Shown here: positions 1 through 33,208 of the stretch, piece by piece
How the letters are laid out: every line of letters starts with the position of its first letter
Numbering within the stretch: position 1 is the stretch's first letter
Assembly: GCA_009746045.1 (NCBI GenBank)
Contig: RPFO01000648.1
Coordinates: forward strand, 969,021 to 1,033,020
Origin: Mesostigma viride
Taxonomy: Eukaryota; Streptophyta; Mesostigmatophyceae; Mesostigmatales; Mesostigmataceae
DNA: 64,000 bases
Reading direction: 5' to 3'
Program-made: the position numbers and the translations under genes
Notes under the pieces: model-generated
Told to the model about the DNA's origin: nothing
What the model saw: only the letters and a program-made list of their open reading frames with translations
The model's database searches: none

Positions 1-959
1 TCATTTGTTGCCACGGGACGTATGCTGGCGATGGCGATGGTGAGTCGTTTGTTTCGATGACCGCCGGATAGTGCCTGCTCTCTTTCTGATGCGTTTCCTC
101 GGTTGCGTTGTTTCCATTTGGCCGAATTCACCTTGTCGAAGCGAAGACATAGCGTAGCAAGGGTCTGCGTTTCATTTTCTTAGCCGTGCAGGACGCCATC
201 TTCATGGTCCTTCGCGTTTCCCGAGTGAACGTCCGTTGCCAGAGGATCTGTGATGATTTTTTCTGGAATATACTGGGCGGTGAAAGCCCCTGTGGATGCT
301 TGCCAGGTCATGAGTTTAGGGCGTCATTTACTGCTGTAGTGGCTGACATTCATGGTGCTTTATGCGTAAGATAATCTGCCTTGCTTCGCACGTGGATTTT
401 CACTGGGCTGAAGAGCGCGTCTGGTAGCATGTTTACGTGGTGTATAAGGTGATCAATCCACCATTTGTTTATAGAAGGTGTGAGAATAGAAGGTGTGACA
501 ATAGAATGTGTTTTATATTTCTTCATCAACCACGTCAAAAGTAATCTCCACTGGCTTACAACCTGAATCTTGCTTTGCTGGGTCTGCTGTGTTTCTGTCT
601 CGTTGTGCAGGCCATCCCCTTGGTTGACCAACAAGGTGATTTGTGGTGCCAGCGGGGCCATATTATTTTCTTCTCATTTTCCATCCATGGCATCGGACCG
701 CATGGGCGGGCGGGAGGGCAGATTGGGCAGGGCAGGGCAGGGCAGGCCAGGCCAGGCAAGGCAGGGGAGGCTGCAAGGGTATGGAGCACAGGTAGGCTGG
801 CAGGCAAGGGACAAGGGGCAGGGGACATTGGGCATGAGCCATGAGGCTTGAGCTACGAGCCTTGGGGCATGGGGTTGGGGGAGGCGGGAAACAGACGGGC
901 AGGCAGCCAGCCACATCCACATGACTAGGGGCCAGACAGCAATCAGGGGCACCGCGGGC

Positions 960-1580
960 CCACTTATGCATGCCAGCCACACCCCTCACCAACGTACGCA
1001 TGCCAGCCACCCCCGACACCCACGCACGCATGGCAGCCACCCCACAAAGCTAGGCACGCATGCCAGCCACCCCCTAAACCCACGCACGCATGCAAGCCAC
1101 CCCCACACCCGCGCACGCATGGCAGCCCCCCCCACACCCACGCATGCATGCCAGCCACCCTACAAACCCACGCATGCATGCCAGCCCCCCCCGAAACGCA
1201 CGCACGCTTGCCACCCCCCCCCACATGCACGCACGCATGCCAGCCATCCCACAAAACCACGCATGCATGCCAGCCCCTCCCACACCCACGCCCGCCCCGC
1301 CCCACATGCGTGCATGGCAGCTCCCCCCCACAGCCACGCATGCATGGCAGCCCCCCCACAAACCCACGCATGCATGCCAGCCACCCCACAAACCCACGCA
1401 CGGATGCCAGCCACCCCCACACCCACGCACGCATGCTAGCCACCCCACGAGCCCACGCATGCATGCCAGCCACCCCCCACATGCACGCATGGATGCCAGC
1501 CACCCCCCACACCCACAAAGGCATGCCAGCCACCCCCCACACCCACGCACGCATGCCAGCCAGCCCCGCCCACGAATGGA
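960..1580. repeat. About 29-bp CA/GC-rich minisatellite in U0
   Basis: Imperfect units of mostly 26-30 bp with the core ATGCCAGCCACCCC and ACCCACGCACGC. Stop codons are rare in every frame, so overlapping open frames appear on both strands (His/Pro/Thr-rich forward, Trp/Gly/Cys-rich reverse). These are repeat artefacts. Confidence 0.9.
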
Positions 1581-1986
1581 CAGGGCTAGCATGCCACGCC
1601 CCAACGTCGCGCACAAGGGCACGGTCGAGTCATGTACAAAACATTGTCAACATGAAGTCATAGTGGGCATGACCGATGGTGCCTGTGTTTACAAAGGATT
1701 GCCACTCAATGAATATTAATGAATTATGAACATGGGAGTTTGCATGGGAGTGTTTGGTCGTTATGGCTGCCGCTTGCAAAAAGCGGTACCCACATTGTGT
1801 CTTGCATGGCATAGCTGCATTGTGAGTTTCAGTTGTTAGGAAGTAATGAGTAAGGAAATACTTGCATGCAATGAACGGCGACGTCTCACAATATACGGTA
1901 CTATTCGCACTGGGTTGATGTACTAGTAGTATGACGCGTGCTGGACGTGGCCGTGAGGGACGTAGCGTGGTATCGACGGTGCGGCG

Positions 1987-4474
1987 CATTACAATTCGTT
2001 CAAGTGGCCCGCCGGAGCGGCTGTACAATTTTTCCCAGTGAGCGCGCTGCCAAGTGTACTTGTGGGCAAATTTTTAGGTGCCCTGTCACTTCGAGGTACT
2101 AAAAATTAGGCTACGGTACGAATTCAGCGAATTTCAGCGAATTTTCAGTCGAACCAAAGGAAGTGACGCCAACTACCAAAAAGTTTCCGTTACGAATTTT
2201 CAGCCCAACACTCGCGCAAAATGAAGTGACGGCAACTACCAAAACGTTTCCGTTACGAATTTTCACTCCCACACGTTTGCACAAGAGGAAGTGACGGCAA
2301 CTACCAAAAAGTTTCCGTTACGAATTTTCAGTCCCACACTTCGCGCAAATTTTAGTAGGGCTGCACGCAAGCTACCTTTCAAAATTTTGCGCTAGTATGG
2401 AACGCATTTCATTCGTCTGGAGGAACGCTGCCCGCCAACTACCCCCGTTCAGAATGTTCCGCCGAAATTTACTTGAGATTTGGAAATCTGAACGTGCGCG
2501 CAAATTTTAGTAGGGCTGCACGCAAGCTACCTTTCAAAATTTTGCGCAAGTATGGAACGCAATTCATTCGTCCGGAGGAATGCTGCTCGTCAACTGCCCC
2601 TGTTCAGAAAGTTGCGCCGAACTTTACTTGAGATTTGGAAATCTGAACGTGCGGTTGGAGTTTCGCGGGGAAACCCAAGTTCCCTAGTAATTCACCAATG
2701 ACGCGCTTCGAACACTTGCCCGCTAAAACCTAAGCAGCCGCTCCGGCTGGCCACTTAACCCCTAAATGGTCTGGCTGCCGATTTTCCGCCTAAAACTGAG
2801 TTACAGCCGACACGTCGGCCCCTTCTCGGGGGACCAAATGCCGCGAAAACTATTGAGAATTAGGAAAAGTTTAGCTGAGAAGATCGAAAGTTTATAATTT
2901 TCCTCACAGCATGGTACTAGGGTTTGCATACTTCTGACAAAGTTATAGAGGTGTTCTGGCCGGTCAAAGTACAAGGGGTCAGGGTACTTTTTCACGTACA
3001 ACGTGCATTCCGGAAAACGACGACCTGGCCATGGCGGCTTGCGCCCACGCATGGCATTTACGTTTTCGTTCGAATTTTCTGACCAAACTCAGGAAATTGA
3101 TTTTATACGTCATAAAGATGATACAGGCCAATTTTTGGTTCGCGGGAATGCCATTTGATAGGTGTCGGCAGCGTTCTTGCTGGAAAAAACTGCGATCAGG
3201 CCGGACGATAGAAACGTTGACAGCAATAACTTTCCGGCGTATTTTAAAGGATATATTGGTTTCTTTGTACTTTTTATGATACATATTAGTCGTAAACGTG
3301 CAAGGGTGGCCAGAAATCGCCGAATCCAGCGACCATGCTGCACAACTTTGGTGTGCCGAAATGCGCCATTTTGCGGCCACCGCCTGGGCCAAGGTAACGC
3401 CATCCATGCCTGGTAAAGCTGATTTATCGTTTTCCTATCGATGTTTGGCGTTTATATATACGTTCTAGCTTGTGTAGCACATTCTTTTTGCATTATTCAT
3501 GCTCTTTCTTGACCCTGGCCTGGCCCCTTTCTAAAACACCCTTCTTAGATGCTTCCCTCAGTCAGTTGACCTGCCACAGGGTGATGGTGAAAAGTTTTAG
3601 AGGCTGTATGGGTTTGAATACCTCCATATATGTTTGTTATACATTTCCCACACACATATTGCATGAGTGTGAGGCAGTTGGCTGGTCTCTGTGGCATCAT
3701 CAAGCATGTACCCGGTGAGTAGAAGCTTCCCATTGTCAGCATGTGCCACCAGGTGTGCTGGCCATCACCTGGCAAGCTATAGCAGCTTAGGCCTAGTTTA
3801 TCCTTGCTAGGGCAAGCTGAAATAGGCTTAAAATCACTAGTTTGTTGGTGGCTGCCTCCTAGAATGCATGCCTTGCGTAGGGTATCCGCACCACGTTACC
3901 TACGTGCATGGACAAGGTGGCACCTGCACATAGGTGCCATGTAAGGGCAGTGTGATGATGCAGTTATGTTTCCCCATCATTGTGGAAGGGAAATGTATTG
4001 TGTGGCATGGTTGGGGGCCATATTAGTAGGTATTAGTAGGTAGTATGCCCACTCCTACCCCCTTGGTTGCTTTTTACCAACGGTACCTCTATGGGCTGTA
4101 CTGGGTGTAACTGCTGGTATACCCACCCAAATGATGACCCCAAGGGCTCAAACTGTTCAGCAACTAATTGTTTATCATCCCTGAAGTGGTAGGTGCCTAG
4201 CTCTTACAACATAATTCAAAATGCACATTCTACCAAAAATGAAAACGCTCGTCTTGACCCCCCTGACTTTGAAGGCAGTTATACATGGCCTACCCTGCAT
4301 ATATGTAAGGTTGTGATATACCAACCCGAAGGGTAACTCGTGGACATGCTTGGCCCCCAAGGACAGCCATTGGATATGGGTGGGTTGGATGGCATCTGGT
4401 TTGCAAAATTGTGAAGTTACAGCCGATGCATCGGCAGTATTTCTGCCCATTTAGGGGTTAAACGAAACTTGATG
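1987..4474. mobile_element. Composite insertion inside U0
   Basis: This block is absent from the corresponding position of U4 and U5, where GCGGCG runs straight into GGCCGGCG. Its ends are weakly inverted (CATTACAATTCGTT on the left; CATCAAGTTTCGTT on the right when complemented). Within it, the left segment 1999-2760 is flanked by inverted copies of a GTGGCC...CCGGAGCGGCTG motif. The segment 2757-4462 is flanked by inverted TTAACCCCTAAATGG. Both sides of that segment carry GTTACAGCCGA followed by a palindrome (2806-2819 and 4422-4435). No transposase is recognised, so it may be two nested non-autonomous DNA transposons. Confidence 0.5.
2158..2660. repeat. Two short tandem-repeat sets
   Basis: A 64-bp unit (GAAGTGACGGCAACTACC core) is repeated three times from 2158. 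It is followed by a 157-bp unit (GCGCAAATTTTAGTAGGGC start) present twice, at about 2343 and 2500. Both lie in the insertion within U0. Confidence 0.8.
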
Positions 4475-4660
4475 GGCCGGCGCGAGCGCGCGCGATGGGA
4501 AGCCCCCAAAGGAAGGCCGCCGAGCGTTCGCCCCCCGGCGTAGTAGGCCGGCCCGGTCGGCGGGCTCAACCCGGCGGGTCGAAGCTTTCGGCGAAGGCCT
4601 CAGGGCCCCTGGTGGCGTAGTGCGTCCGAATAAGTGGGGGGCCTTGGCCCCCCCACCTTG

Positions 4661-5388
4661 TTGCCCTTTATACTACTTTTAGGTCGGCCCAATTGTTCCG
4701 CAAACTCTTCCGGCAAACTTTGTCCGTACCCGAGTAGCGCAAAAATCCGAACGCACAATTTGTTTCCACAAAATCTTTCAGCAGATCCCATCCGTAGGCT
4801 TTCTAGCAGCCTGTCACCGCGTAGCGTCCGGCGCCCAAACTCTTCTAAGACGAGTAGCCAAACAAATGCGTGCCAACCGACAATCAGTAAAAGCGTTGCG
4901 CGGAGAAACGACCGTAACCGCGTCGTAACGGTTAATGTTTCCGAGTAGCTAAGCGCCGAAGCCTTGCGTTCCGAGTTGAGCTTGAAATTGGCCTAGGCGT
5001 TTGGAACGGACGAGGGAAATTGGCAAGGAAAACGGCGAGGAGCGGACCGATTCAAGGGGTATTTGGCGGTTGCTGGCAAAAAGCGAGAAAGCTGACGGAC
5101 GGACCTGACCTACTGACAGACCAGGTTTAGTTGCGGTTCGGTTCAGCCACCGGCTTCCCAAAATAGGCCAGCAAACCGTCCGGCACCATGAGTTTGCATG
5201 GAATCGAGGCGTAATCCACGGAATCACAGGCTGTGGCCGGCCGTACAGGTTCGGCTGTCTTGCTAGTGGGCGGGCTGTGTAAGCGGGAGTGTACGGCTGT
5301 GCTGGTACTCGCCGTTGAGGCACAAAAAGCCGTTGAGGCACAGAATCTGCCAAGTAGCGGGGGTTCGGGGGCGGAGCCCCCGATCTTG
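4661..5388 (+). mobile_element. Array unit U1 (short type S1, 728 bp)
   Basis: Starts TTGCCCTTTATACTAC directly after the CTTG of U0 and ends with hairpin GGGGGC-GGA-GCCCCC (5367-5381) and GATCTTG. It is homologous to U6 and to the pieces of U7. It carries an uninterrupted TA site near 4945 (CCGAGTAGCTAAGC), which is the empty site for the CACTA-like insertion in U7. No coding sequence is recognised. Confidence 0.75.
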
Positions 5389-6122
5389 TCAACTACTATA
5401 TTACGATCGTGTTGCGCAAGGGAGAAACCCGAACATCCTGACATCGCCGCGGGCGCCGTACCGTACGGCCTGATCGCACCCCCACGAACGGCTTCTATTC
5501 CTGAAATCCTGCGGAGCCGCGAGTTATGGCCCGTAACCGCCGGCCTGAACGCCGTCACACCCTCCTAAGATCGAGTCTCAGGAGTTCTGAACGGAAACTG
5601 AATTCAGAAATATTCAGCAAAATGCGCGAGAAATGCCGGGGGGCATATACGGATGGGGGGAAGAGTTTTGCGCTGGGGGTTTTCGACCGAAATATCCTAG
5701 TCGATTTACTAAGGGTTCAGACTGAACGGGAAATTTCGAGTGTTCAGACTGAACGAAAATTAAGTTTGAACACATTTCTGAACGGATTTTTCGTTAAATT
5801 TTCGGTTGGGCCTACTTCCCACGCAATGTCCGTGCCAATTTTTGCGAGATGACTGACCTGAACATGTTCAGACGGGGAGCATGGAAAAAAAAAACGGCTC
5901 GAAACTGTGGAATGCAGGGGGCTCCGCTTAAAAAACGGCCGTACGAAACCGAAATTTTTGGGCTCCCGCTGGCCCCCCCGCCTCGGCGCCCTCGGCCACT
6001 GCCCCTTCGCACTGCGCACCCCGCGTGGCGCCGGCGTTCCCGAGGACGCACCCCGCGGGTGTACGCGCCAATCGCCCGCTCAGGCGCCAAAAAGTCTGGG
6101 CCCCGAAGGGGCCCCCAACTTG
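5389..6122 (+). mobile_element. Array unit U2 (short type S2, 734 bp)
   Basis: Starts TCAACTACTATATTACGATC and ends with hairpin GGGCCCC-GAA-GGGGCCC (6098-6114) and CAACTTG. U3 is a tandem copy of the same type. The interior shares TCTGAACGG-type motifs with the long units. No gene recognised. Confidence 0.75.
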
Positions 6123-6855
6123 TCAACTACTTAACTACGATCGTGTTGCGCAAAGGAGAAACCCGAACATCCTGACATCGCCGCGGGCGCCGTACCGTAC
6201 GGCCTGATCGCATCCCCACGAACGGCTACTATTCCTGAAATCCTGCGGAGCCGCAAGTTACGGCCCGTAACCGCCGGCCTGAACGCCGTCACACCCGCGT
6301 AAGATCGACTGTCACCTATTCTGAACGGAAGCCGAATTCAGCAAAATGCGCGAGAAATGCCGTGGGGCATATACGGCTGGGGGGGATGTTGTTTGCCGAA
6401 GCAGCTTAGCCCAAACATCGTAGTAGATTTACTAAGGGTTCAGTCAGAACTGGAAATTTTGAGTGTTCAGACTGAACGGGAAATGTGCAAAAAATTTAGT
6501 TTGAACCCTAGTCTGAACGATTTTTCGGTTGAATTTTCGGTTCGGCCTACTTCCCACGCAATTTTCGTGCCAATTTTTGCGAGATGACTGAACTGAACGT
6601 GTTCAGACGGGGAGCGTTGCAAAAAAACGGCTCGAAACTGTGAAAAGCAGGGGGCTCAGCCCAAAAAACGGCCGTACGAAACCGAAATTTTGGGGCTCCC
6701 GCTGGCCCCCCCGCCTCGGCGCCCTCGGTCACTGCCCCTTCGCACTGCGCACCCCGCGTGGCGCCGGCGTTCCCGAGGACGCACCCCGCGGGTGTACGCG
6801 CCAATCGCCCGCTCAGGCGCCAAAAAGTCTGGGCCCCGAAGGGGCCCCCAACTTG
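6123..6855 (+). mobile_element. Array unit U3 (short type S2, 733 bp)
   Basis: A second copy of the S2 type. It starts TCAACTACTTAACTACGATC right after the CTTG of U2, and ends in the same GGGCCCC-GAA-GGGGCCC hairpin and AACTTG. The next base begins a long-type unit, so the S2 end is seen next to two different starts. No gene recognised. Confidence 0.75.
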
Positions 6856-9800
6856 TTCCCTATATAGTAACTACGATTTAGCCCATCGCAAAAGTTTGGC
6901 GAACCGTGAGGCCCGAAAAGTGGCCCGTACGAAAACCGCGAGCGCAGGGCGGCCGATAGTCAGGGCGATCCGGGGATCCGCGGTGGCGCCCAATCGGAGC
7001 AGTTGCCCGAAAAGTGGCAAACTAGGCAGATCGAGTCTCACACGTTCTGAACGGGGTCTGAAACGGCAGTTACGTCCAGATCCGGTTCAGCACTTTTGCG
7101 GGCAGGTGGGAGGCCAGCCAATGGCCGCGGCCAGATAAAAATACGGAACCCGGCACGATGTCGGCTTGTTGCGCGGCCGTCAAACAATGTCGCGAACCTG
7201 AACATTCCAAACTTTCCGGCGGTAGTAGACGGATGTGGGACGAGGAAGAACCCCTACTGGGCCCATCGCCAGGCCGAGAACGCGCCGTTCTTTTGGGCCG
7301 TAGCGTTCAGTGCGGCAAGTCTACTGAACGTCCAGAAAATGTTTAGAAACCGTAATAATTTGGGCCTTATGGCCGTTTTCCTGTGCGCATTTCGTTCAGA
7401 AACCGTTTCACTGAGTGTTTTCGCATCACTTTTTCCGATTCAGACCAAACCTATAGTCTGAACGTGGTCTGACAGATATTTATTCTAAAATTATACGCAA
7501 ATTTTGAGTTGGAGGAGTGGAGAGTAGTACGATGCTTGCTGGACTAATTTCAGCAAGATTCCGTACTTACCAAGCAGGGAAAAAATGACTTGGGAGGATT
7601 TTCAAGTGGGTAGTACGCGGTGCTGGACCGCCTGGACGCGCCCAAGCAATCGAACGTGCATAAACCAGGACTGCGAGGGGGTGAGGGGGCGACATGCTGC
7701 GACAGCACTTAATTTAATTTCCTGCTGGCTGGGGATGGCGGTCAACGCTGCCTGGAAAATTGGGGATGGACAATGCGTGGGCATTGCTTTTATAGCGTTC
7801 AATGTTCCATTTCGATGCGTACCTTTGAATTGTTTCTGATCTGGCTGGACGTCGGTGGGTAGTCACGTGCGTGGGAGAGGTTCGGGGCGCTATGGCCTGC
7901 TGCGATAGCTAGCGACCTGGAAATGGAATGTCGTTTTAGATTTAGGTATCATGCTATCGTGCTTCTTTGCTTGACGTATTGGGTGCCTAGTGAAATCAGT
8001 TTGCTAGCCGTTGAAGGCGTGGGTGTGGCCGACGAGTTTCTGTTGTCGTCACACCATATTGGAATGAACGCTGGAATCATTTGTTGGCACGGGACGTACG
8101 CTGGCGATGGCGATGGTGAGTCGTTTGTTTCGATGACCGGGCTAGTGCCTGCTCTCTTTCTGATGCGTTTCCTCGGTTGCTTTGTTTCCATTGGGCCGAA
8201 TTCACGTAGTCGCAGAGAAGACATAGCGTAGCAGGGGTCTGCGTTTTATTTTCTTAGCCGTGCAGGACGCCATCTTCATGGTCCTTTGCGTTTCCCGTGT
8301 GAACGTCCGTTGCCAGAGGATCTGTGATGCTATTTACTGGAATGTACTGGGCATGGAAAGCCCCTCGGGATGCTTGCCTGGTCACGAGTTTAGGGCGTCA
8401 TTTACTGCTGTAGTGGCTGACATGCATGGTGCTTTCTGCGTAAGATAATCTGCCTTGCTTCGCACGTGGATTTTCACTGGGCTGAAGAGCGCGTCTGGTA
8501 ACATGTTTACGTGGTGTATAAGGTGATCAATCAACCATTTGTTCATGCATAGAAGGTGTGACAGTAGAAGGTGTGTTATATTTCTTCATCAAGCAAGTCA
8601 AAAGTAATCTCCACTGGCTTACAACCTGAATCTTGCTTTGCTGGGTCTGCTGTGTTTCTGTCTCATTGTGCAGGCTATCCCCTGGGTTGACCAACCAGGT
8701 GATTTGTGGTGCCAGTGGGGCCATATTGTTTTTCTTCTCATTTTCCATCCATGGCATCGGACCGCATGGGCGGGCGGGAGGGCAGAGAGGCCAGGGCAGG
8801 CCAGGCCAGGCCAGGCGAGGCAGGGGAGGCTGCAAGGGTTTGCAGCACAGGTAGGCTGGCAGGCAAGGGGCAAGTGGCAGGGGACACGGGGCATTAGCCA
8901 TGAGGCTTGAGCTACGAGCCTTGGGGCATGGGGTTGGGGGAGGCGGCAAACAGACGGGCAGGCAGCCAGCCACATCCACATGATTAGGGGCCAGACAGCA
9001 ATCAGGGGCACCACGGGCGCACCTATGAATGCCAGCCACCCCCCTCACCAACGTACGCATGCCAGCCACCCCCGACACCCACGCACGCATGGCAGCCATC
9101 CCACAAAGCCAGGCATGCATTCAAGCAACCCCACAAACCCACGCACGCATGCCAGCCACTCCCACACCCACGCACGCATGGCAGTCAGCCCACAATTAAC
9201 CCCACGCACGCATGCCACCCCCCCCCCCCACATATGCATGCATTCCTGCCATCCCCCCCCACACCCACGCATGCATGCCAGCCACCCCCCAAACCCACGC
9301 ATGCATGCCAGCCACCCCCACACCCACGCACGCATGTCAGCCCCCCCACACACCCACGCATGCCTGCCAGCCCCGCCCCAAACCCACGCACGCATGCCAG
9401 CCACCCCCACACCCACGCACGCATGTCAGCCCCCCCCCACACCCACGCATGCATGCCAGCCCCCCCCAAACCCACGCATGCATGCCAGCCACCCCCACAC
9501 CCACGCACGCATGTCAGCCCCCCCCACACCCACTTATGCATGCCAGCCACCCCCGTCACCAACGTACGCATGCCGTCCCCCCCCCACACCCACGCACGCA
9601 TGCCAGCCCGCCCTGCCCCACATGCGTGCATGGCAGCCCCCCCCCAAACCCACGCATGCATGCCAGCCACCCCACAAACCCACGCACGGATGCCAGCCAC
9701 CCCCACACCCAGGCACGTGCATGCCAGCCACCCCACGAGCCCACGCATGCATGCCAGCCACCCCCCACATGCACGCATGGATGCCAGCCACCCCCCACAC

Positions 9801-10510
9801 CCACGTACGCATGCCAGCCACCCCCCACACCCACGCACGCATGGCAGCCCACCCCACGAACCCACGCACGCATGCCAGCCCCCCCCTAAACCCACGCATG
9901 CATGGCAGCTCCCCACCACACCCATGACTAGATAGGGCTGCATGGCCTGACGCGCCCCATGGTCGCGCACAAGGGCACTGTCGAGTCATGTACAAAACAT
10001 TGTCTGCATGTAGTCATAGTGGGCATGACCGATGGTGCATGTGTTTACAAAGGATTGCCACTCAATGAATATTAATGAATGATGAACATGGGAGTTTGCA
10101 TGGAAGTGTTTGGTCGTTATGGCTGCCGCTTGCAAAAAGCGGTACCCACATTGTGTCCTGCATGGCATAGCTGTTAGGAAGTAATGAGTAAGGAAATACT
10201 TGCATGCAATGAACGGCGACGTCTCACAATACACGGTACTATTCGGACTGGGTTGATGTACTAGTAGTACGACGCGTGCTGGACGTGCCCGTGAGGGACG
10301 GAGCGTAGGATCGACGGTGCGGCGGGCCGGCGCGAGCGCGCACGATGGGAAGCCCCCAAAGGAAGGCCGCCGAGCGTTCGCCCCCCGGCGTAGTAGGCCG
10401 GTCCGGTCGGCGGGCTCAACCCGGCGGGTCGAAGCTTTCGGCGGGGGCCTCAGGGCCCCTGGTGGCGTAGTGCGTCCGAATAAGTGGGGGGCCTTGGCCC
10501 CCCCACCTTG
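6856..10510 (+). mobile_element. Array unit U4 (long type L, 3655 bp)
   Basis: Starts TTCCCTATATAGTAACTACG and ends with the 8-bp GGGGGGCC-TT-GGCCCCCC hairpin and ACCTTG at 10510. It is a complete copy of the type seen again in U5 and partly in U0. It contains the minisatellite at 9010-9930. No Rep, helicase or transposase motif is seen in any open frame, so it would be non-autonomous. Confidence 0.8.
9010..9930. repeat. About 29-bp minisatellite in U4
   Basis: Same family as at 960-1580, with variant units of roughly 26-30 bp. The C-rich plus strand makes the minus strand a G-rich tract with many G runs. Confidence 0.9.
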
Positions 10511-16739: not shown

Positions 16740-19700
16740 TTTGCATGACTTCAGTTCACTTGTATGTAAGGATGCGGGGGAGATCGCAGCAGTTGCGTGG
16801 CTATCTATGAGTACCGGCCTAGTTTTAGGACAAAGAAGGTGAGATACTGGGCCAAGAGAGAGACAGGGGTGCTCGAGAAAAAAATTGGCCATGGATGTTC
16901 ACCTAAATTGTATCTACATGCCTCACAAGTTGTAGGGAACTGCACACCCAGGAATCCTGGAGTCGCAAAGGTTCCCTAACATGCCAAGAGGCCTCACAAT
17001 CTACTTCATTGCAATCTCTGTATGGTTAATACGGCAATAAGAAAGAAACGCCTGATTAGTGCCAAGAAAAAGCAAGGCCAATCAACCAACAATATGCCCC
17101 GTTACAGGTAGGATGAACTCTAACGAGGCTGAAGGCTCTACGTCTGCAATTGACACTAGCAGGAGTCGTTCAGGGTGGGGTGTGGGGGGGAGGGAATGAC
17201 AAAAAGCTGTGATCTGAGCAAAAAGGATAAATATGCAAAGATGCTACCCATGCAAGGAAGCGAGACATAGTCCAGCAATGCCACGAATGTCAGCCGAGGC
17301 TACTGGATTGCAAAGAAGGTTCTACCGACAGCGAAGGAATTGGTACGAATAATGCCAACTATTTGTAGCTGAGAGCATCACCAGCGGGCTACAAAAAAAT
17401 CATGCACGGAAGCTGGAAGAACAAGGCCAATGGTGGCTGACGCGCACAGCACGTTGATAATTTGAGGAATGAGCACTACATAAAGAATGATCACCGTTGC
17501 TCACCATCAAGAATTCGCCGCGCTGGACAGGCGACCAAGAGCTTGTCGCTGCCACATGCGATGGGGCCGCGTGCAAGCCCAACGGTATTAGGCATCACAA
17601 GTACACGCGCAAAATTGACACCACAATGGCAACACAGATGCACACATACGAATGTATAACGACCGAAAGCATAAACAGAGAATCAGTTGGTTAAGACAAG
17701 GAAAGTGGCGCAAGAGCAGCCCATGTCATGCAACTCTCAATCTGAACAAGGTTATGCCCTTCATGAAAACTAAATCAGATGTCGTTTGCATAGTCTATTG
17801 ACCTTGTACGAATGAGATAGTGAAACTGCTGCAGCATTCATGGCAAGCACGGCTAACTTGGCATGAAACCGAGCGGCCCATAGCAGCCTTGGCCCTAGGG
17901 CGATACGTGAGAATGCCACGTGCGTACGGCATGCATGTTAAAGTCGATGCAAACTTATTAGTATTTCAGGCGAGGAATTCCTTGCTCACCTCAACTGGTA
18001 AAGAGTGGGCAGCTTCTGGATGTCCGAATGTGCTGTGCGTACCACTGAGCGAACAGATCGATTAAAGCTTTATTCTAGACCATGCCTATGTTTCTCCCCC
18101 GATGGCTGCTTGTAGCCTTGTCCGAGCTCGCTCCTGAATTCATTTGAGACGACGCCCTAATGGCTACATAAATCACGACGGTCATCAGTGAGCCTATGCT
18201 CCTATTCCAACAACCACGTGCGTTCATACAGAAGCGACATTGCTGGAACTCAAAAGGCACATAATCCCGCCTTGGCTGCGAGCCGATCGCAGCTCCCTTC
18301 CACCTTTCCCACCTGTGCAGCGTGGATAGATGTGCAACTCGAAGGTCTTTTTTTTTTCGCGTCGTCTTAACTTCAACGGTAACACCCGCGCAACCACTGG
18401 AATTAGGGCTCGCAATTCGCCAAGTCCCATCAACGTCGCAAAGTCTGGTGTCGTCGCTCTTCCTGTCATCAATCATTAGTGCCAAGTACTATCGTCATTA
18501 CTGTCGTCATTAGAGGCCCTTTAGGCCTTTACTATCGTCAGTCACTCGCTTTGTGACGATAATAACGTACGGTAGATGGCATCAGTCGTACTTCCCGCCC
18601 CCCCCCCCAGCCCACGTCCCCTTCCGGTTTCGCCGCTACTACATCTCGCCCCAAGTAGAAGTTTGCATTTTGCCATACATTAGGAAAAACTGACTGACGA
18701 AACCAGTAAAAAGACGACTGACATGACTCTCTAGTATCGCTTGGTTGGGACCGCTGGCCTGGCATCGTAACTGTTAGCCGTACCGTTCAGACTACAGTCC
18801 ACAGCAGCCCCTAGCTTGGGAGTCTGGAATGAATGGACAAAAATCTTTCGCAACATGCGCAAGTCTGGAATTCAACCCGTCAGGATCCTTGCGCAAAATT
18901 CAAATATTACGCCGAAACCGATGGCAAACGACTAGGTGCACGCAATGGCTAAGGCAGTGAGGGGCTGAGGGTACGCTCGAGCGAAGGGGCCACCTAGTTT
19001 TATGTAACCACAGAGTGTGCAATAACAAACGGGGCTGCAGGTCCACGAAACGACGTGATTTCTCTAGCAATTGCGGCGTAGCAGTTTGGATCATGATGTA
19101 GGTGCACTTAGGATGTATGTCGAGTTTAATTAAGCATGGAGGTAGCAATGAGGGACTGAGACACATCATATCCAGTTCTGAATCAAGCCGTTCTTTACGC
19201 TGAAACACAGCGCAAGCAAGATCTCCGGAACCTGCCGCCAAGCTCCTTAGCCGCTAAGGTTAGCAAAATTCTGCCAGCTTCTTTTACAGCGGTTAGCATG
19301 CCGTGCTCATGTGTATGAGGCCATTTCATGGCGGCCGGGTAAAGCTGGCCATGTCTTTGAGAGCTTTGAATATGTATTCTCTGAAGGCTTTCAATACCAT
19401 GGTGCTTTCTGCGCTCGGCATCTTATGTGTGCCTTCGAATTGCCGTTTTCCTCTTCAATTGCGCGTGTACCTGCGGGTGACTGATACCGTTGGGCTGGCC
19501 TCACCTGCGGCCTACCCGCGAATGGCAGGCTAGCTCCTGGTCGAGACTTGTGGTGAGTAGTGGGTACCATCGCATACCTGGAGTCTGTACTTTGTTATCG
19601 ACGTGCTGTATGTGGCATTGCTAGAATGCATCCAGTTCTTCCTGTTTCTAACTCCAATTACTTGGCATTTTTGCAATCATGCTCCGCCTACATTTAAACA

Positions 19701-20437
19701 CACATGCGTTGCATTTTTTCATAAGGCTTCTTTGTTGTTGAAAGCCGTAAACTGTCTTTCTGCTATTTACATCCCGTCTGCTGCGACTTTCTCCGGTTTT
19801 CCCCCATTGACCCCGTCTCTGCTGCACTTTCCATCAGCTCCTTTTTGTTGACAATCAGCGCTTTTAACCTTGTTAGCAAATTGTAAAAATGACACTGTCT
19901 AATATATATGAGAAAAATCCTTGTGCCTATTTTTATTAGGAGTTCAGTCATTGGGCTCTAGGAGACATGTGTGATCAACTTTGAGGCTCGTCCTTTGGGA
20001 TAAAACCTCCAAAGAGTCACACCACTGGACGAGTTATCTTGAACCAGAACTTTTTGTTGGAACACTGACTGAGAGCAGCACGCTTAAGGTTTTGTAAGAA
20101 AATCATTTTTTCTCTGAAACGCCATAGCTCCTTTCTAATCATTGTGATTGTGTTGCGTATTCCTTGTCAGTCAGTTAGTTATGTATTCCTTATCATGGGA
20201 CAGGCGGAGGGGGGCTAATAATTCCTCATGGGGGCAGCAAGGGAGTTGGTAGCACACGCAGTTATGAGCTTTGCTTCTTTCAACATGTTGCTCATAATAT
20301 CCAATTTCGTGGTTTCTTGGTCTTTGGCATCTTCATAATAGTAGTGCTAGGGTCTCACTTGGTCACCCTTACAATGTTAGTGCCCTTCAGCAATCTCATT
20401 TTTAGTCAAATTAGGCTTCAATGGTCATCGATTTGAA
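16740..20437. other. Interior of CACTA-like element without a recognised gene
   Basis: Only short open frames are present, none with a domain I recognise. A small inverted repeat, TACTATCGTCA...TGACGATAATA, lies around 18529-18565. Unrecognised multi-exon coding cannot be excluded. Confidence 0.5.
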
Positions 20438-21957
20438 ATGGGAAGCGTAGTGAAGGCCGGTTCACGCCGAGAGAAACGCAGCGCTGCCGATCCAAGAGTG
20501 CAGCCGTGCACGAAGCTCGCAAAGCTGCCTGCAGCAGCACCACCACCGCCGGCAGCGCCGACAATCCTGCCCCCGACAGCACTCCCTTCAACAACCGCCA
20601 CAGCATCGCTGCCATCATCCATGTTGCCTGCGCAAAGAGCAGATGAAGACATGGCCTCGGTAGAGGCGGCGCTGGCCGCGCTCCTTGCCAAGGAGGCAAT
20701 GATTGCAGCCAGAAAGGCGGCCGATGTCTCCCATGCAACCCCTGAAGTAAGTCTCAGGAGTGGGTGGGGTTGTAAACCTGGACATGGTTATGAGTGGTGT
20801 GATTTGGGCGGTTGCAAACAGGGGTAGTTCATGAGTGGGCAGAGTGGGGGCTGTGGGAAATTGGGGTTATTTATGAGTGGAGGGGCTGTAAACTGGGTTG
20901 TTTTTTAGTGGGCTGGGCGGGGGCTGTCGGAAACTGGGATTATTTATGAGTGGGCAGTGTGTGAAACTGTTTTTTTTTTTTTTAACAACTGATTGAGGAG
21001 GTTGTAAACACTTGGGATTATTTGTGAGGGGGGGGGGGGACTGTAAACTCGGTGGCATTTGAGGTGGCTGAGTGGCGCACTCGTTTTTCATAGCCCCCGG
21101 GGGCTGTGGAGAACTGGGTTTAATATGAGGGGGGAGGTTGTAAACTGCATGGGTGGTTTATGAGTGGGCTGAGTGGGGGGCTGTAGGAACCTGGGGTTAT
21201 TTATGAGAGGGGGGGTCTAAACTGGTGTGGTTTATGTCAGAGTGGGCTGAGTGGGGCTGTGGGAAACTGGGATAATGTGTGGGTGGGGGGTTGTATTTAA
21301 CTGGATTGTTTATGAGTGGGCTGAGCAGGGGCTGTCATAAACTGGGATTATTTATGAGTAGGCAGTGTGTGAAAAGTGGGATTTTTTTTATTACTGATTG
21401 AGGGGGTTGTAAACCATTGGGATTATTTGTGAGGGGGGGCGGGTTGGAAACTGGGTGGTTTATGGGTGGCTGAGTGGTGACTGTGGGAAACTGGGGTTAT
21501 TTATGAGAGGGGGGTCTAAACTGGGGTGGTTTATGTCAGAGTGGGCTGAGTGGGGGCTGTGGGAAACTGGGATAGTGTATGAGTGGGGGGGGTCTAAACT
21601 GGGTTGTTCATGAGTGGGCTGAGCGGGGGCTGTCAGAACCTGGGATTATTTATGAGTGGGCAGTGTGTGAAACTGGGATTTTTTTTTTATTTTTTTGAAT
21701 GAGTGATTGCAATTTTACAACCCCCTCATGAGGGGGTTGTAAACACTGGGATTATGAGTTTGCGGGCGGGGGAGGCCGCCTTGCTGTTCTTGAAACCCAT
21801 TCAAGGATGTTCTAGGCAACACGTTGATTTTGATGTGCAACATTTCTATTGATCGAGGCTGTGAAAGGCTATGACACATCTTGAGTGTTTAAACTTGCCT
21901 TTTTTTTTCTGCTCACAGGGAGACAAGGTGCCGGCCTCCTCGTCGTCGTCCACTTGA
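20438..21957 (+). CDS. Two-exon gene end, Ala/Pro-rich protein, inside CACTA-like element
   Basis: The first exon (ATG at 20438, ending 20746) encodes about 103 residues. It has a basic start (SRREKRSAADPR), an Ala/Pro/Thr-rich linker and an Ala-rich possible helix (SVEAALAALLAKEAMIAARK). It ends at a GTAAGT donor in phase 0. The acceptor TTTTTTTCTGCTCACAG leads to a 39-base second exon (21919-21957) that stays in frame, adds GDKVPASSSSST and stops. The intron is filled by a tandem repeat. The frame is open upstream of the ATG, so earlier exons may exist. Function is unknown; the position inside the transposon suggests an element-encoded or captured gene. Confidence 0.45.
20755..21780. repeat. 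Degenerate intronic tandem repeat
   Basis: G/T-rich units containing GAGTGGGCTGAGTGGGGGC, AACTGGGATTATTTATGAG and GGCAGTGTGTGAAACTGGGA are repeated with variable order and length. They fill the intron of the two-exon gene at 20438-21957. Confidence 0.8.
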
Positions 21958-22260
21958 CATCGTCATCTAGGCACTACGGCTGCGCATGTTTGTTTTTGTT
22001 TTCTTGATCTATACCGAGCGCTTTCTTGTTCATGAATTGGTTACTAGGGTGCGGTGGCAGATGAGACAATTGACACCAACCATCCGTTCATGTTTCTTGC
22101 GCATGTGCGTTTTTTAATGCATTCCAGGAACATTCCGAGATTTCTGTCACGCAACGACAAGCGCCAAGCCGGCGTTTGCAAATTGTCACTGATCGATAAT
22201 CACTGTTGAAGAATGAAGAATCAAGACTGAAGAATGAAGATCTGTTACATTTATCTTTAT

Positions 22261-22275
22261 ATTTGTAATAAAGAA
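22261..22275 (+). terminator. Candidate poly(A) signal TGTAATAAAG
   Basis: Contains both TGTAA, the usual chlorophyte signal, and AATAAA. It lies about 300 bases after the stop codon at 21957. Confidence 0.4.
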
Positions 22276-22309
22276 ATCGCGAGGCGTGCTTTTCATCCGT
22301 TTTGCTTTG

Positions 22310-22840
22310 GAATGTGTTCTGATATATCTGTGTGACATGTCAGGATATATCTGTGTGATATGTCATGATCGCCCGTGGTTTTATGTCACTGTTTTCTCCC
22401 TAGATTTATCAGTGACAATGTCACGGATTTTGTCACCCTTTTTTCCTGATATATCAGTGACAATGTCACGGATTTTGTCACCCTTTTTTCCTGATATATC
22501 AGTGATAATTTCACGGATTTGTCACCCTTTTTTTCGTGATATATCAGTGATAATGTCACGGATTTGTCACCCTTTTTTTTGTGATATATCAGTGATAATG
22601 TCACGAATTTTGTCAGTGCGTTTTGTCAAGTCGTGACATTGATATTTTGTGATAATTTCCTTGTTTTTGTCACAAAGATAATCACAGAATATGCTGGTTT
22701 TATCACATGATTTGTCACGAAATGTCACAGAATATCACAGTTTTGTCACAAAAAATCACAAAGTGTCACATTTTGTCACATCCACATCACAAAATGTCAC
22801 GTGATATGTCACAAAATATCACAAAATGTCACACCCCCCT
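22310..22840. repeat. Right subterminal repeats of the CACTA-like element
   Basis: About four units of roughly 60 bp containing GATATATCAGTGA and AATGTCACGGATTTTGTCAC. These are followed by dense ATCACAAAATGTCACA copies in the opposite sense to the left end. Confidence 0.75.
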
Positions 22841-22947
22841 TCCTAGTGTAGCTAAGCTCCTTTGCTATCCTCAACGATGCGGGCCAAGTTCAGCTTGAAA
22901 CTGGCAAGGAAAACGGCGAGGAGAGGAACGATTCAAGAGGTATTTGC

Positions 22948-25582
22948 CAGTGTCCGTAATGTTGGTGATAGGCAGGACACACTTTATTACGTGGCAGACT
23001 TGGTCTATCGACCACTGAGAAATCGTGAACACGTGTAAACACGTGTCTCCCACGCGTCCAAAACCCGAGCAAATGATGGCCGCGGGAAGACGGGATGGCT
23101 GTCGACAGCCATCTGTTTAGGAGGTCGTGCTTGCTGGGCAAGCTGCGTTGTCATGGCTGGACGCTTTGAAACGGGGGTTTATTATTAGCATCTCTTACCA
23201 GCTACGCAGGACGTGAGCTACCGCGTTGTCGAAGGGCTGTGGTCGGCTGCATAGGTTGCACGGGTGCAGTTAAGGTGAGCGATTGCGTTATCTGATGTGC
23301 ATCGCGGAGTATGCCAGGCAGCATTTGCATGTTCATCGTTTCGCTTTACATGCGTGTCGCCCAGTAGCCTTTGCTAGCTCCGTTTTCTGGCATTTTGGTA
23401 GGCGATACTGCTGCCGAAGTTTTCAGTTTTTTGGGTGTTTTGCATTCGTGTGCCAGGCGGAGTGCTGACGAACTTTTCACGCTGCTTGGGCGTGTGTTTT
23501 GCGCTCGGTTTTGTTGTATTTCGATTTTGGACGCTTTGGAACGTCGTTTCATGCGTTCTTTTACTTCGAGGCCGTGTGCTGGCTTTGTCTTTCCGCCAGC
23601 AGCGGGAACGGATGCCCAGTTTGCTCGGCAACAAGATTCGTTGCGTCACCTCCCGCATGGCAGGTATGCCTGCCGCTCTTTGTTGATGTATTTCGGTCGG
23701 GGACACTTGCGAATGCGTTTCCATTCCTTTTCCTGCACTCAAGCATGATTTTTTCCATAGAGTTTCTGTCACCCACCAGGGAAGTGTTCCTGTTTTTGCT
23801 GCATCTGCGTGGGCTTTGTTTTGAAAGCAGGTATGCTGCCTGCGGGGGATGGCATGGACATGGCGTGGGATCCTGAGCGTCCAGCCCAAGCAAACGGCCG
23901 GGGACACAACGTTTGGATTTTGAGCTGGAATTTGTTTTGTCCCTTTTCATGAAAAGGATGTTTTATCATGCATTTTGGGCATTAATGATGAAATATTAAT
24001 CAATATAGTAATGCAATGAAGGAGATAGTGTCTGTACCTTGTCATGTTGTAAAGAGCTATCTTTGGAATGGTAATCCTCCCACCCAAGCATCCATGCCAG
24101 CCACCCCCCACACGCATGCATGGCAGGCCCCCCCCACACCCATGCACGCATGCCAGCCACCCCCCACACCCACGCACACATGGCAGCACCCCCACGAACC
24201 CACGCACGCATGCCAGCCACCCCCGACACCCACGCACGCATGCCAGCCCTCCCACAAACCCACACACGCATGCCAGCCACCCCCCACATGCAGACATGCA
24301 TGCCAGCCACCCCCCACATGCAGACATGCATGCCAGCCACCCCACAATCCCCCTTACGCATGCCAGCCACCCCCCTCACCAACGTACGCATGCCAGCCAC
24401 CCCCCACACCCATGCACGCATGGCAGCCACCCCACGAACCCAGTCACGTAGCCAGCGCCCCCCTAAACCCCCGCATGCATCATTGGCAGCTCCCCACCAC
24501 ACCCACTTATGCATGCCAGCCCCCCTTCACACCCAGGCACGCATACCAGCCCGCCCCGCCCCGCATGCATATGCATGGCAGCTCCCCCCACACCCATGCA
24601 CGCATGCCAGCCGCCCCACAAACCCACGCACACATGGCAGCACCCCCACGAACCCTCGCACGCATGCCAGCCCCCCCCGACACCCACGCACGCATGCCAG
24701 CCCTCCCACAAACCCACACACGCATGCCAGCCCCCCCCCACATGCAGGCATGCATGCCACTCCACCCCACAATCCCACTTATGCATGCCAGCCACCCCCG
24801 TCACCAACGTACGCATGCCAGCCACCCCCCACACCCATGCACGCATGGCAGCCACCCCCCACATGCATGCCAGCCACCCTACAAACCCACTTATGCATGC
24901 CAGCCACCACCCACACCCAGACACTCATGCCTGCCACCCCACGAACCCAGGCACACATGCCAGCCACCCCCTAAACCCACGCATGCATGGCACTCCCCCC
25001 CACACCCACGAATGCATGGCAGCCCGCTCCGCCCCACATGCATGCATGGCAGCTCCCCCCACGCCCACACACGCATGCCAGCCCCCCCACCCACGCACGC
25101 ATGCCAGCCCCTCCCACACCCACGCATGCATGGCAGCCCGCCCCGCCCCATATGCATGCATGGCAGCTTCCCCCACGCCCACGCACGCATGCCAGCCCCC
25201 CCACCCACGCACGCATGCCAGCCGCCCCACAAACCCACGCACACATGGCAGCACCCCCACGAACCCACGCACGCATGCCAGCCCCCCCCGACACCCACGC
25301 ACGCATGCCAGCCCCCACACACACCCACGCACGCATGCGAGCCACCCCTCACACCCACGCACGCATGGTAGTCCCCCCACAAACCAACGCACCCATGCAA
25401 GCCCCCCCCCACATGCATGCATGCATGCATGCCACCCAAAAAACCCACGCACGCATGCCAGCCACCCCACACACTCACGCATGCATGGCAGCTCCCCCCC
25501 ACACCCACACATGCATGCCAGCCATCCCACACACTCACGCATGCATGGCAGCTCCCCCCCACACCCACGCATTCATGCCAGC
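22948..25582. mobile_element. Second insertion in U7, carrying a minisatellite
   Basis: S1 homology to U1 stops at 22947 and resumes at 25583. The inserted block starts CCAGTG and ends CACTGG, a possible 6-bp inverted terminus, but no clear target duplication is seen. The first kilobase (22950-24050) contains dispersed similar motifs such as GGACGCTTTGGAACG; the rest is the minisatellite. No gene is recognised. The type of element is unknown. Confidence 0.45.
24075..25580. repeat. About 29-bp minisatellite, longest block
   Basis: Same family as in the long units. It produces a 451-codon open frame that is purely repeat derived. Larger-order duplications of several units are visible, for example 24170-24420 against 24590-24850. 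Confidence 0.9.
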
Positions 25583-26124
25583 TCACTGGCTTCCCAAAAT
25601 AGGCCAGCAAACCGTCCGGCACCATGAGTTTGCATGGAACTGTGGCGTAGTCTAGGGGATCACAGGCTGTGGCCGGCCGTACAGGTTCGGCTGTCTTGCT
25701 AGTGGGCAGGCTGTGTGAGCGGGAGTGTACGGCTGTGCTGGTACTCGCCGTTGAGGCACAAAAAGCCGTTGAGGCACAGAATCTGCCAAGTAGCGGGGGT
25801 TCGGGGGCGGAGCCCCCGATCTTGTTGCCCTTTATATTACAATTTTAGACAGCGATTTGTTTGCGCAAACCCTAAAAGCAAACTGTTGCCGCGTGCGAGT
25901 AGCGTTCCGCGGCGACCGCGATTGGGGGGTCGACCGTAGGGGTTCCCTTACATGCGTGCCGTTGGCTTGGTTGCGTCCACTGGTTGCGCGGCAAAGTTTG
26001 GCCCATTTGTGCCACCATTGCGGCCAAACTTTTGTCAGACAGCGTTTTGGCGGGCGTGCCTAAAGTTGTTTGCCCAAACTCTTGCCAAAAGTGTTGCGCA
26101 AACTCTTCCGTATTCGAGTAGCGT

Positions 26125-26690
26125 GGCCTATTGACCACAGAATTTCGGCATTGCGACCGATTCAAGCGGTATGTGTGCGACAAACGTGGTGGGGTTGTTG
26201 CCCGGTTATTGGCCGGAACCTAGCGTCAGTTTGACCACAGAATTGCGGCATTGTTGCCCAGTCGCTGCGTGTTGGTTCGTCACTTTGCATGTCGACTGCG
26301 CAGTCGCTGCGTGCCACAGGACAGCTCGGTAAAGGGTTTGTTTCAATAATTTCAACGGACGCAACGAGTGCACGATGGGACGAAGACAAGGATAGCATGC
26401 GGAATTCAGAGAATTCGCACGATTTCCATTAAAGAAGGTCATTTAATGGTGTTGTTTGTGCATGTTGCCCGGTTGCTGCCTGGTTTTTGCGTGTCGTGGC
26501 GACCGCGCAGTCGCTGCGTGCCAAAGGACAGCTCGGTAGCGTTGGTTTCAATGATTTCAACAGATTTTAACGGATGCAACGAAGGCACGAAGGGACGAAG
26601 ACAACGATAGCATGCGGAATGCAGAGAAATCATGCGAATTCGTGAAAGAAGGTCGTTGAATGATGTTGTTTGTGCATTTTGAAAAGTCAG
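26125..26690. repeat. Two imperfect copies of a roughly 200-bp segment
   Basis: GCGCAGTCGCTGCGTGCCA followed by GGACAGCTCGGTA, ACGAAGACAA and ATAGCATGCGGAAT occurs at about 26295-26465 and again at 26505-26680. A shorter TTGACCACAGAATT motif is repeated at 26131 and 26230. Confidence 0.75.
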
Positions 26691-26839
26691 GTGTTGTGGG
26701 ATTCAATCAACGGCAAGGAAGCGTTTATACTGGCCTTTGAGTCGAAAGTGTGCTGCTTTACGTCAAGATTTCCATAACTATCGGTTTGCGCCACCAGTCT
26801 CGCGGGATGCGCGTCCTGCATGGAAGGGGGGAAATTTTT

Positions 26840-26880
26840 ATCAAGGAGACATCTAGCGCAGGCCAGAAATCGGGAGAATT
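26840..26880 (-). repeat. Dispersed 41-bp repeat, copy 1
   Basis: Complement of a motif reading CTCCCGATTTCTGGCCTGCG then CTGGTTGTCTCCTTGAT, with a few changes. Other copies lie at 30566-30600, 32878-32918, 33153-33193 and 41753-41794. The element it belongs to is not identified. Confidence 0.7.
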
Positions 26881-27299
26881 CGGACCCTTTCTTATGCCCC
26901 CGGGCGAGGGACGATACCTTTCGTGGTGGGATCTACTTTGTGGTGGGATCATCTTTTGTGGTGGCTCGCGCCTTGACACCTCACAGGCATGCAACGTAGA
27001 TAACATCATTAAAACTCCGGCGGCGCTGCAGGGTGGCATGGCAAGGGATCTGGCGCTATCTGACGGGAAAGAAGGCATAACCTCACGTTGATAACGTTGC
27101 TAAGATCAAGCGAAACATGTCGGCTGTCGGGGTTTTATCGAGTGGTTTTTGAGTGGTTTGTTGGAAGGTGTTTGCTGCAGGCTGCTCAGTTGTATGTAAA
27201 TATTGAGGCAATTAAACGTTTCTTAGCACCGGCTTCACTGTGCTTGGAGGCTTCACTGTGCTTGGAGGCTCACCAGCTTGTGTATTTTTAGCAAACGGA

Positions 27300-27600
27300 T
27301 GTGTTGGAAAGAAAGTGACATGGGTTGATCTGAGGGGCATACTGCACGGGTGAAACGCATGCAGGTAGGGAGTATCATTGGTAAGGCTGTATGTTATGTG
27401 TATACATATCTTGCGTATGCGTAGGTTGCATTATGCGTATGCGTATATTGAATTTGGCCTTGTGGCAAGCTTTGGTTTCTTACCAAAGGGTTGTGCTGGA
27501 AAGAAAGGTGACAGGGGTTGATCTCAGGGGCATACTCCATGGGTGAAACTGCATGTAGCTAGGTAGAGGGCATCTTTGGTAAAGCAGTATATAATGCCAG
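27300..27600. repeat. Duplicated roughly 100-bp segment
   Basis: GAAAGAAAGTGACATGGGTT...GGTAAGGCTGTAT (27306-27400) recurs with changes at 27496-27592. Between them is GCGTATGCGTA-type alternating sequence. No gene seen. Confidence 0.7.
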
Positions 27601-28281
27601 GTATACATGGTTGTCTCCTTGATACATATATTTCAGGTTCTTCTTTTCGGGGTTTAATTTCCCTATGTTGCATGCCATTCTCACCCGCCTCTAATATTCT
27701 CAATGAATGCATATATTGCTTCCACTCCGGGCGACCAACTTTAGTGTAAATTATCCTACGGTATAACCGGTTGTGATAAATTAATGGATGAATAGATTAA
27801 TGTCGCGCTCATGGTCCTCCCTGCCTTACCAATGAAATATAAATGCTTCCGTAACGCTCATGCAATAAATGTCACAACTAAACCTAACGCACAAGCAATG
27901 ATATACGCATACGTATTTTACACGTACCTCCGTCTGAACATCGCACAGTGAACAAAGTGCAAGACGTGTTCGCTGTGTTACCCCAACGGTTACTAATGCT
28001 TACGGCCTCAGTCGCACATCTCCGTAGCGCAATGGGAAGGGCAAATGTCTCTAGAATCTCCGATTGGCCGGGAACTAGCGTACGATTTTCACAGATTTTC
28101 ACTCCAGTTGGTCGCCCGGACTGGAATATTTGCTCGCGTTCAGTGGGCCCTAAATGTGCACACGTTCCGTAGACGGTTGTAGTAGAGTAGGTGACGTGTC
28201 CGGCCGGAGACCGGCCACAAACGCCGGACAGGCACAATATTGGTTACTACCGGGGGCCCGGGGGCGAAGCCCCCGTTCTTG

Positions 28282-29501: not shown

Positions 29502-29509
29502 GTAAATTG

Positions 29510-30848: not shown

Positions 30849-30852
30849 TTAA

Positions 30853-32595: not shown

Positions 32596-32667
32596 TTAAT
32601 TAATTACTGATAAATACACGTAGGCTGCGTCACATGTATGAGCATAATAACCCGGAAAGGAGAACTT

Positions 32668-32875: not shown

Positions 32876-32877
32876 TT

Positions 32878-33193: not shown

Positions 33194-33208
33194 ATGAAAT
33201 CGCGGCAT

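Follow-up and report, generated by a model that had tools for sequence, protein, structure and literature searches.

A head-to-tail array of probable Helitrons of several families, ending in a hairpin and CTTG, in Mesostigma viride

The stretch of DNA analysed here, hereinafter the window, comprises 64,000 nucleotides (nt) of the streptophyte Mesostigma viride (assembly GCA_009746045.1, contig RPFO01000648.1; C1879:969021-1033020 in the contig numbering used below) and opens with a head-to-tail array of nine units, U0 to U8, which we regard as almost certainly Helitrons. The units are delimited by nine GC hairpins on the + strand, each located 0-4 nt before CTTG/T (the stroke here and below marks a boundary between neighbouring bases), with the CTTG motifs at positions 4657, 5385, 6119, 6852, 10507, 14321, 15072, 25821, and 28278. 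Three families can be distinguished, namely L (U0, U4, and U5), S1 (U1, U6, and U7), and S2 (U2 and U3), from which U8 stands apart; the order from U0 to U8 is accordingly L, S1, S2, S2, L, L, S1, S1, U8, just as the original prediction, made from the sequence alone, had drawn it. The units are as follows:

1..4660, + strand: U0, L-family Helitron with a nested element; it begins 1207 bp before the start of the window
4661..5388, + strand: U1, S1-family Helitron
5389..6122, + strand: U2, S2-family Helitron
6123..6855, + strand: U3, S2-family Helitron
6856..10510, + strand: U4, L-family Helitron
10511..14324, + strand: U5, L-family Helitron
14325..15075, + strand: U6, S1-family Helitron
15076..25824, + strand: U7, long S1-family Helitron with a nested terminal-inverted-repeat (TIR) element and a minisatellite
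25825..28281, + strand: U8, last recognised unit

A scan of the 64 kb for hairpins whose stem has 7 bp or more and a GC content of 80% or more, and whose end is at most 4 nt from CTTGT, returned exactly those nine junctions, all on the + strand, with no match on the - strand; in 200 dinucleotide shuffles of positions 1-28300 the mean number of hairpin-CTTGT matches was 0.015 and the maximum 1, so that the claim of nine units abutting without a spacer at CTTG/T junctions was borne out. In L, S1, and S2, furthermore, each start is seen after differing ends and each end before differing starts, and the junctions of these three families are therefore fixed by the sequence itself, as had been proposed. 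Units of one family are about 85-88% identical over long stretches. The array continues upstream of the window, where U0 is preceded by an L unit of 7.0 kb, itself preceded by another L end; downstream of U8 the DNA begins TTTAGTAAATC and was not recognised as a unit. Both U0 and U7 hold nested elements, and U7 reaches a length of 10.7 kb.

All nine unit ends of the window carry a hairpin near the 3' end, whose sequence varies by family while the stem is kept. The stem measures 8 bp in L and S1 and 7 bp in S2 and U8, and the gap between hairpin and CTTG is 0 nt in L, 1 nt in S1, 4 nt in S2, and 2 nt in U8. A hairpin at every unit end had been foreseen, and that part stood; the gap of 1-3 bases given earlier becomes 0-4 nt, and the S1 stem lengthens from 6 to 8 bp. 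The hairpins are:

4634..4656, + strand: 3' hairpin of U0 (L type)
5365..5383, + strand: 3' hairpin of U1 (S1 type)
6098..6114, + strand: 3' hairpin of U2 (S2 type)
6831..6847, + strand: 3' hairpin of U3 (S2 type)
10484..10506, + strand: 3' hairpin of U4
14298..14320, + strand: 3' hairpin of U5
15052..15070, + strand: 3' hairpin of U6
25801..25819, + strand: 3' hairpin of U7
28259..28275, + strand: 3' hairpin of U8

At the opposite end the units all begin with T, the next base being C in S2 (U2 and U3) and mostly also in L (U5; U4 begins TT), and T in S1 and U8. A (C/T)TAC motif, in which the first base is C or T, occupies positions 13-16 in S1, S2, and U8 and 15-19 in L. Elements of the Helitron2 or Helentron type resemble these units in the 5' T, the 3' hairpin, and, in some copies, internal tandem repeats (PMC3627910, PMC4067079). 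Helitron2 is described, however, as having a 5' hairpin together with asymmetric inverted repeats (PMC3627910), whereas in the window units neither such repeats of 8-15 bp nor a 5' hairpin was found: the longest match in S1 and L was 6 bp, which length was reached by 10-11% of shuffles, and that in S2 and U8 was 4-5 bp, while folding at the 5' ends is weak (-1.0 to -2.7 kcal/mol). On these grounds ends of the Helitron2 kind were rejected.

We then compared these ends with those of copies elsewhere in the source genome, whose assembly contains 440 Mb in 2243 contigs. About 40 matches were scored per query (for L tails, 40 from 684 first-look candidates), and the sampled loci, designated below by L with three digits, are thus the best-scoring matches and not a census. 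The L-tail query itself contained the L-S1 junction, so that places with that junction rank first; the query was matched over its full length by 12 of the 40 scored L tails, which hence run into S1. From the other 28 we fetched 20, every one of which directly abuts another unit (L in 18 instances, S2 in one, and a further family in one). The terminal tetranucleotide of those 20 tails was CTAG in 13 and CTTG in 7; the 3' variants seen in the L family (L050-L069) are CACCTTG and CACTAG. The S1, S2, and U8 ends caught by our search patterns are CTTG by construction, and those of the window are CTTG as well. The suggestion that CTTG constitutes a new type of end was consequently not upheld, both in view of that preponderance of CTAG and because CTTG has been reported before, in HELPO2 (PMC4289320) and in truncated Helraiser insertions next to T (PMC4778049).

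As to the 5' side, 24 of 27 sampled L starts follow another unit (with a TCCCCA stub in between in L092, and with C as the first base of the unit in L076) and three follow DNA without a recognised unit end; all three of the latter have G before the T. In 10 of 20 fetched S1 regions no recognised unit precedes the first S1, one of these (L096) having an altered 5' end. At the remaining nine edges the base preceding S1 is A in seven and G in two, and among 13 more S1 starts 12 follow a unit and one follows a stub (L114). Six of the 20 regions contain lone S1 copies (L095, L099, L100, L102, L111, and L112), and all six end where the original prediction had placed the array junctions, which outcome agrees with the expectation that solo copies would share those boundaries. 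Where the DNA after a unit end was not recognised as another unit (10 flanks, from eight S1 regions, L006, and U8), it begins with T in every instance. Four of the six lone S1 copies have no direct repeat at their flanks; matches of 3 bp in L099 and 2 bp in L102 we take as chance. Read from these flanking bases, the units obey the A/T rule of Helitrons, with G/T in a minority and without a consistent target duplication. A target of G/T only, as the three L edges might have indicated, is contradicted by the lone S1 copies.

The same data bear on two other explanations. That the array is an artefact of assembly might be entertained for a repetitive locus, yet the same junctions recur in arrays on many contigs, and lone copies with the same ends are located in other DNA; we therefore regard an artefact as extremely improbable. 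Alternatively, the terminal CTTG might also be the required target, after the manner of IS91-like elements: IS801 targets GAAC, GGAC, CAAG, and CGAC, the third of which reads CTTG on the complementary strand, and a GC-rich stem-loop is present at the left ends of IS91 (PMC3189936). None of the 12 flanks before units outside arrays ends in CTTG, however; the last base of those flanks is A or G, and the bases preceding it vary. The protein set described below, moreover, includes a helicase, which the transposase of the IS91 family lacks, and matches that of Helraiser. CTTG was accordingly rejected as the target, and an IS91-like rule is highly improbable.

Other families were encountered among the sampled loci. 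In one (L083, L087, L101, L104, and L122) a hairpin stands some distance before an end ...TTTTTTCTTG, the gap between hairpin and end, judged by eye in L083, L087, and L101, being larger than 0-4 nt; another starts with TCCCCTAATGTAACTACG or similar (L061, L047, and C1513). Pattern scans of viral contigs and of bacterial and archaeal contigs gave no match.

A coding relative was sought through the Helitron Rep domain PF14214, which had 55 matches in the source genome as against zero in the 14 control genomes. Several contigs (C1, C3, C244, C381, C1424, and C1513) hold both L tails and Rep matches. An element for which both ends were located, C1:8649865-8681314, has a length of 31,450 bp, in which nested elements may be included; between its L-type 5' and 3' ends it contains L internal segments and the Rep and helicase frames. 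Its 5' end at 8649865 comes directly after an L unit ending in CTAG, and its 3' end at 8681314 is followed by a 10-nt stub and then by another L start; its L 3' end is 258 bp long at 96-97% identity. On C1513 an L 3' end likewise lies downstream of Rep and helicase frames, with a second copy of the helicase in between; the L 3' ends of C1513 and C1 measure 257-258 bp at 96-98%. On C244 the first 700 bp of a unit are L 5' sequence (87% to U5); L internal DNA follows, and Rep and helicase frames lie further downstream. A relative with Rep and helicase between L-type ends, such as the original prediction had proposed to look for, is thus present, and the proposal of a rolling-circle HUH element was correct. 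Rep and helicase lie in separate reading frames. The C244 frames match PF14214, PF05970, and PF21530, and those of C1 give the same three families; against Helraiser (7lcc) the C244 Rep scores an E value of 2.7e-31 and the helicase one of 3.4e-42. The HUH motif is GLPHAH and the tyrosine motif YLNKY, with two tyrosines, so that the coding element possesses the HUH Rep with two tyrosines and the PIF1-type helicase canonical for Helitrons.

Replitrons have a single catalytic tyrosine and no fused helicase, and that identity was rejected on account of the Y..KY motif and the PIF1 helicase. As for the endonuclease domain of Helentrons (PMC3627910, PMC4067079), none was detected in the ten reading frames of the C1 element that were scanned, though introns could hide one. 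Compared with the C1 element, L is without some 19 kb that hold Rep and helicase, between points located 44 bp apart in U4, and because of that missing segment L looks like an internal-deletion derivative of the Rep-helicase element. Ends common to coding and non-coding copies were seen for L only.

The original prediction had also offered, as an alternative, a cassette system similar to that of integrons, in which a site-specific recombinase would act upon units each marked by a hairpin. The terminal hairpin and the fixed junction would be in keeping with such a system. The Pfam scans of the window, in which stops were written as X, covered six frames of 15400-22800, 25825-28281, and 6856-9000, three frames of 1987-4473, 22850-24080, 46000-52600, and 55300-64000, and four frames of 28282-40000, which coverage leaves out U1-U3, U5, U6, most L 3' parts, and the minisatellites. 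Neither an integrase nor a transposase domain appeared in the stretches so scanned; the coding relative is a Helitron, and lone S1 copies at A/T together with an L-ended Rep-helicase element explain the features of the array. We thus consider a cassette system very improbable and set that alternative aside.

Our explanation of the whole, to which we assign a probability of roughly 0.85, is that the units are Helitrons, presumably mobilised in trans, whose arrays would have grown on the 5' side. The units would have been moved presumably by the Rep-helicase of the L-ended Helitrons elsewhere in the genome, with the terminal hairpin-CTTG (or, elsewhere, hairpin-CTAG) stopping the replication of the transferred strand. 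Since each element starts with T, its insertion at A/T would recreate A/T at its own 5' edge. That restored A/T might later receive a copy from any family; entry there would leave no spacer and create a CTTG/T junction, and repetition of this event would yield a mixed head-to-tail array. For the separate components of the explanation our confidence is lower: serial insertion of separate copies is probably the main source of the mixed array, and we give about even odds that the 5'-edge A/T is the main point of entry.

The tally of junctions is pertinent to this question. Among unit ends distinct in sequence and followed by at least 45 nt, a false match at window position 51592 being left out, we counted 87 (another tally of unit ends has 92 rows once the same match is removed), and T is the next base in all 87. 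Of these ends, 71 pass straight into another unit and 10 into other DNA; the remainder consist of four with a stub of 6-10 nt, one with a TTGTTG spacer, and one with a shortened L start (L004). Stubs, in each case a fragment of the 5' end of a resident copy with A as its last base, occur in five places (L003, L005, L048, L092, and L114, the last at an array edge), and are the remnant to be expected if a newcomer inserted a short way inside that 5' end. Because in the intact 5' end a T follows the sequence kept as a stub, both for S1 (TTGCCCTTTA/T) and for L (TCCCCA/T, U5 type), these two look like canonical A/T insertions just inside the resident 5' end. Our reading is, then, that newcomers may enter at the resident 5' edge or just inside it.

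Several observations weigh against growth from the 5' side or against the Helitron scheme as a whole. The three L copies that have no unit before them among the 27 starts are preceded by G, not A; at the stub of L048 the next base of the intact sequence is G instead of T; the TTGTTG spacer (L005) and the shortened L start (L004) fit neither mode of entry; one unit (L076) starts with C; and the hairpin spacing and the 5' TT of S1, U4, and U8 depart from the textbook Helitron. In addition, the flanks of U8, L006, L099, and L111 that we counted as host contain CTAC and could be unrecognised units, and the link of the Rep-helicase to the movement of S1, S2, and U8 is a presumption.

Since G precedes five of 12 edges (three of L and two of S1), entry of the same Helitrons at the 3' side becomes possible, in which circumstance the arrays would have grown by non-canonical insertion at a resident 3' G/T (CTTG/T or CTAG/T), either on that side or anywhere. 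The unit ends themselves offer G/T, and 3'-side entry at G/T is one of the two models that Du et al. put forward for a maize pair (PMC2267711). S1 outside arrays prefers A, however, at seven of nine edges, and the stubs of resident 5' ends before newcomers in five places point to the 5' side, so that we hold this manner of growth to be doubtful.

Somewhat less doubtful, though still not our preference, is the idea that the arrays arose mainly from rolling-circle read-through, in which at least two neighbours are transferred together, combined with unequal crossing-over. L is followed by S1 at 12 of the 40 scored L tails (the query having held that junction, which ranks such places first); S1-only runs at 728 bp spacing are found on C1424 and C446, and blocks may move together; and both read-through and precise head-to-tail circles have been reported for Helraiser (PMC4778049). 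The neighbours in the window, nonetheless, differ in family or are diverged, at the identities of about 85-88% given above for members of one family, and the read-through of mixed units requires a pre-existing array.

A further proposal we advance only tentatively: newcomers of any family might be drawn to resident 5' ends, at the A/T edge or a few bases inside, in a self-targeting system in which arrays would be the normal condition for L, and long L arrays might perhaps have come to serve as a landmark of the chromosome, for instance a centromere. On several large contigs, among them C1 (8.42-8.71 Mb), C1513 (2.46-2.56 Mb), and C1424 (0.68-0.72 Mb), the matches to L are concentrated in a single place, as would be expected of a centromere. 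Against the notion of a centromere, C1912 has two L sites, L tails on C224 lie about 420 kb apart, and S1 is scattered, which scatter also weakens one cluster per contig as a general rule.

With respect to known Helitrons, classic members end in CTRR, place their hairpin some 11 nt before that end, and insert at A/T (PMC4067079, PMC2267711); the canonical distance of some 10-12 nt from hairpin to 3' end is not found in L, S1, S2, or U8, where it is 0-4 nt. Two different Helitrons joined head-to-tail at a G/T junction were described in maize in 2008, with models of 5'-side entry at A/T and 3'-side entry at G/T (PMC2267711). That pair likewise abuts without a spacer, and the maize 5' consensus TC[TC][CA]TA[CT]TA[CA] resembles the (C/T)TAC motif of the window units; the maize case is a single pair, however, whereas Mesostigma has multi-family arrays at many sampled places, and the hairpin lies 10-15 bp from the end in maize versus 0-4 nt here (PMC2267711). 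HELPO2 of Pleurotus ostreatus shares the 3' CTTG, the subterminal hairpin, the AT insertion, and Rep with helicase, but the word "tandem" is absent from the main text of its description, and the gap between hairpin and end sought there was 5-8 bp (PMC4289320). Helraiser, or Helibat1, is alike in Rep-helicase homology, A/T target, and hairpin terminator (PMC4778049, PMC5876387, PDB 7lcc) as well as in its precise head-to-tail circles and in some truncated insertions that end in CTTG next to T, and differs in having the hairpin 11 nt from a CTAG end (PMC4778049, PMC5876387). Tandem arrays derived from Helitrons are likewise known in plants, where they are described as composed of truncated copies, many with multiple 5' ends and a single 3' end, unlike the window units, each of which keeps its 3' end (Xiong et al. 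2016, as described in PMC12628747).

Head-to-tail Helitrons with a G/T junction are hence already known, from maize and bat. What is unusual here is the hairpin placed almost at the end, the presence of several families per array, and the circumstance that arrays are the usual state of the sampled L copies (20 of 20 tails); in the open-licence literature that we searched we found no mixed-family Helitron array of comparable extent. The maize work had left the origin of the head-to-tail arrangement open among G/T entry on the 3' side, A/T entry on the 5' side, and rolling-circle multimers, and the mixed junctions, lone copies, array edges, and coding relative in this genome provide enough to decide between such models. 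The results suggest, moreover, that search tools fixed on CTRR and on a hairpin about 10 nt from the end would miss many units of this kind.

The window contains further features within and beyond the units. A 30-bp minisatellite is present in the L units and in U7, and nested elements interrupt U0 and U7:

959..1567, + strand: 30-bp minisatellite in U0
9025..9924, + strand: 30-bp minisatellite in U4
12730..13730, + strand: 30-bp minisatellite in U5
24081..25582, + strand: 30-bp minisatellite in U7
1987..4473, strand not assigned: element of about 2.5 kb nested in U0, interrupting L sequence that is continuous in U4 and U5
15366..22849, strand not assigned: TIR element nested in U7, with ends CACTAGGAAGGGG; bounds set by eye

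The element in U0 has imperfect inverted ends, CATTACAATTCGTT and CATCAAGTTTCGTT as judged by eye, with a duplication of at most 1 bp, and that in U7 has an apparent TA duplication and subterminal TGTGACATTTTGTGATA-like repeats. In the L unit upstream of U0 a nested element (L039:1938-7847) has inverted ends and, by eye, an apparent 9-bp duplication AGATCGACT. The Pfam scans gave no domain above the cut-off in U8, in the part of U4 that precedes its minisatellite, or in the elements nested in U0 (three frames) and U7 (six frames); one frame of 15400-22800 contained a CFAP47 match below the cut-off.

Downstream of the array, the 33-39 kb portion of the window is a repeated region, within which the frames 36282-36926 and 37413-37973 resemble what we take to be pieces of a non-LTR (long terminal repeat) retrotransposon, a resemblance that is not accompanied by a Pfam match. 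A frame at 55816-56502 encodes a HYR domain (PF02494, E value 3.7e-8) and is likely part of a host gene. The interval 52642-55245 is a purine-rich tract in which the GC skew approaches 1 and the long reading frames are artificial. Finally, two sets of tandem repeats were observed: at 45222-46094, of about 67 bp with copies about 97-98% alike, and at 61870-62290, of 35 bp with copies about 94-97% alike.

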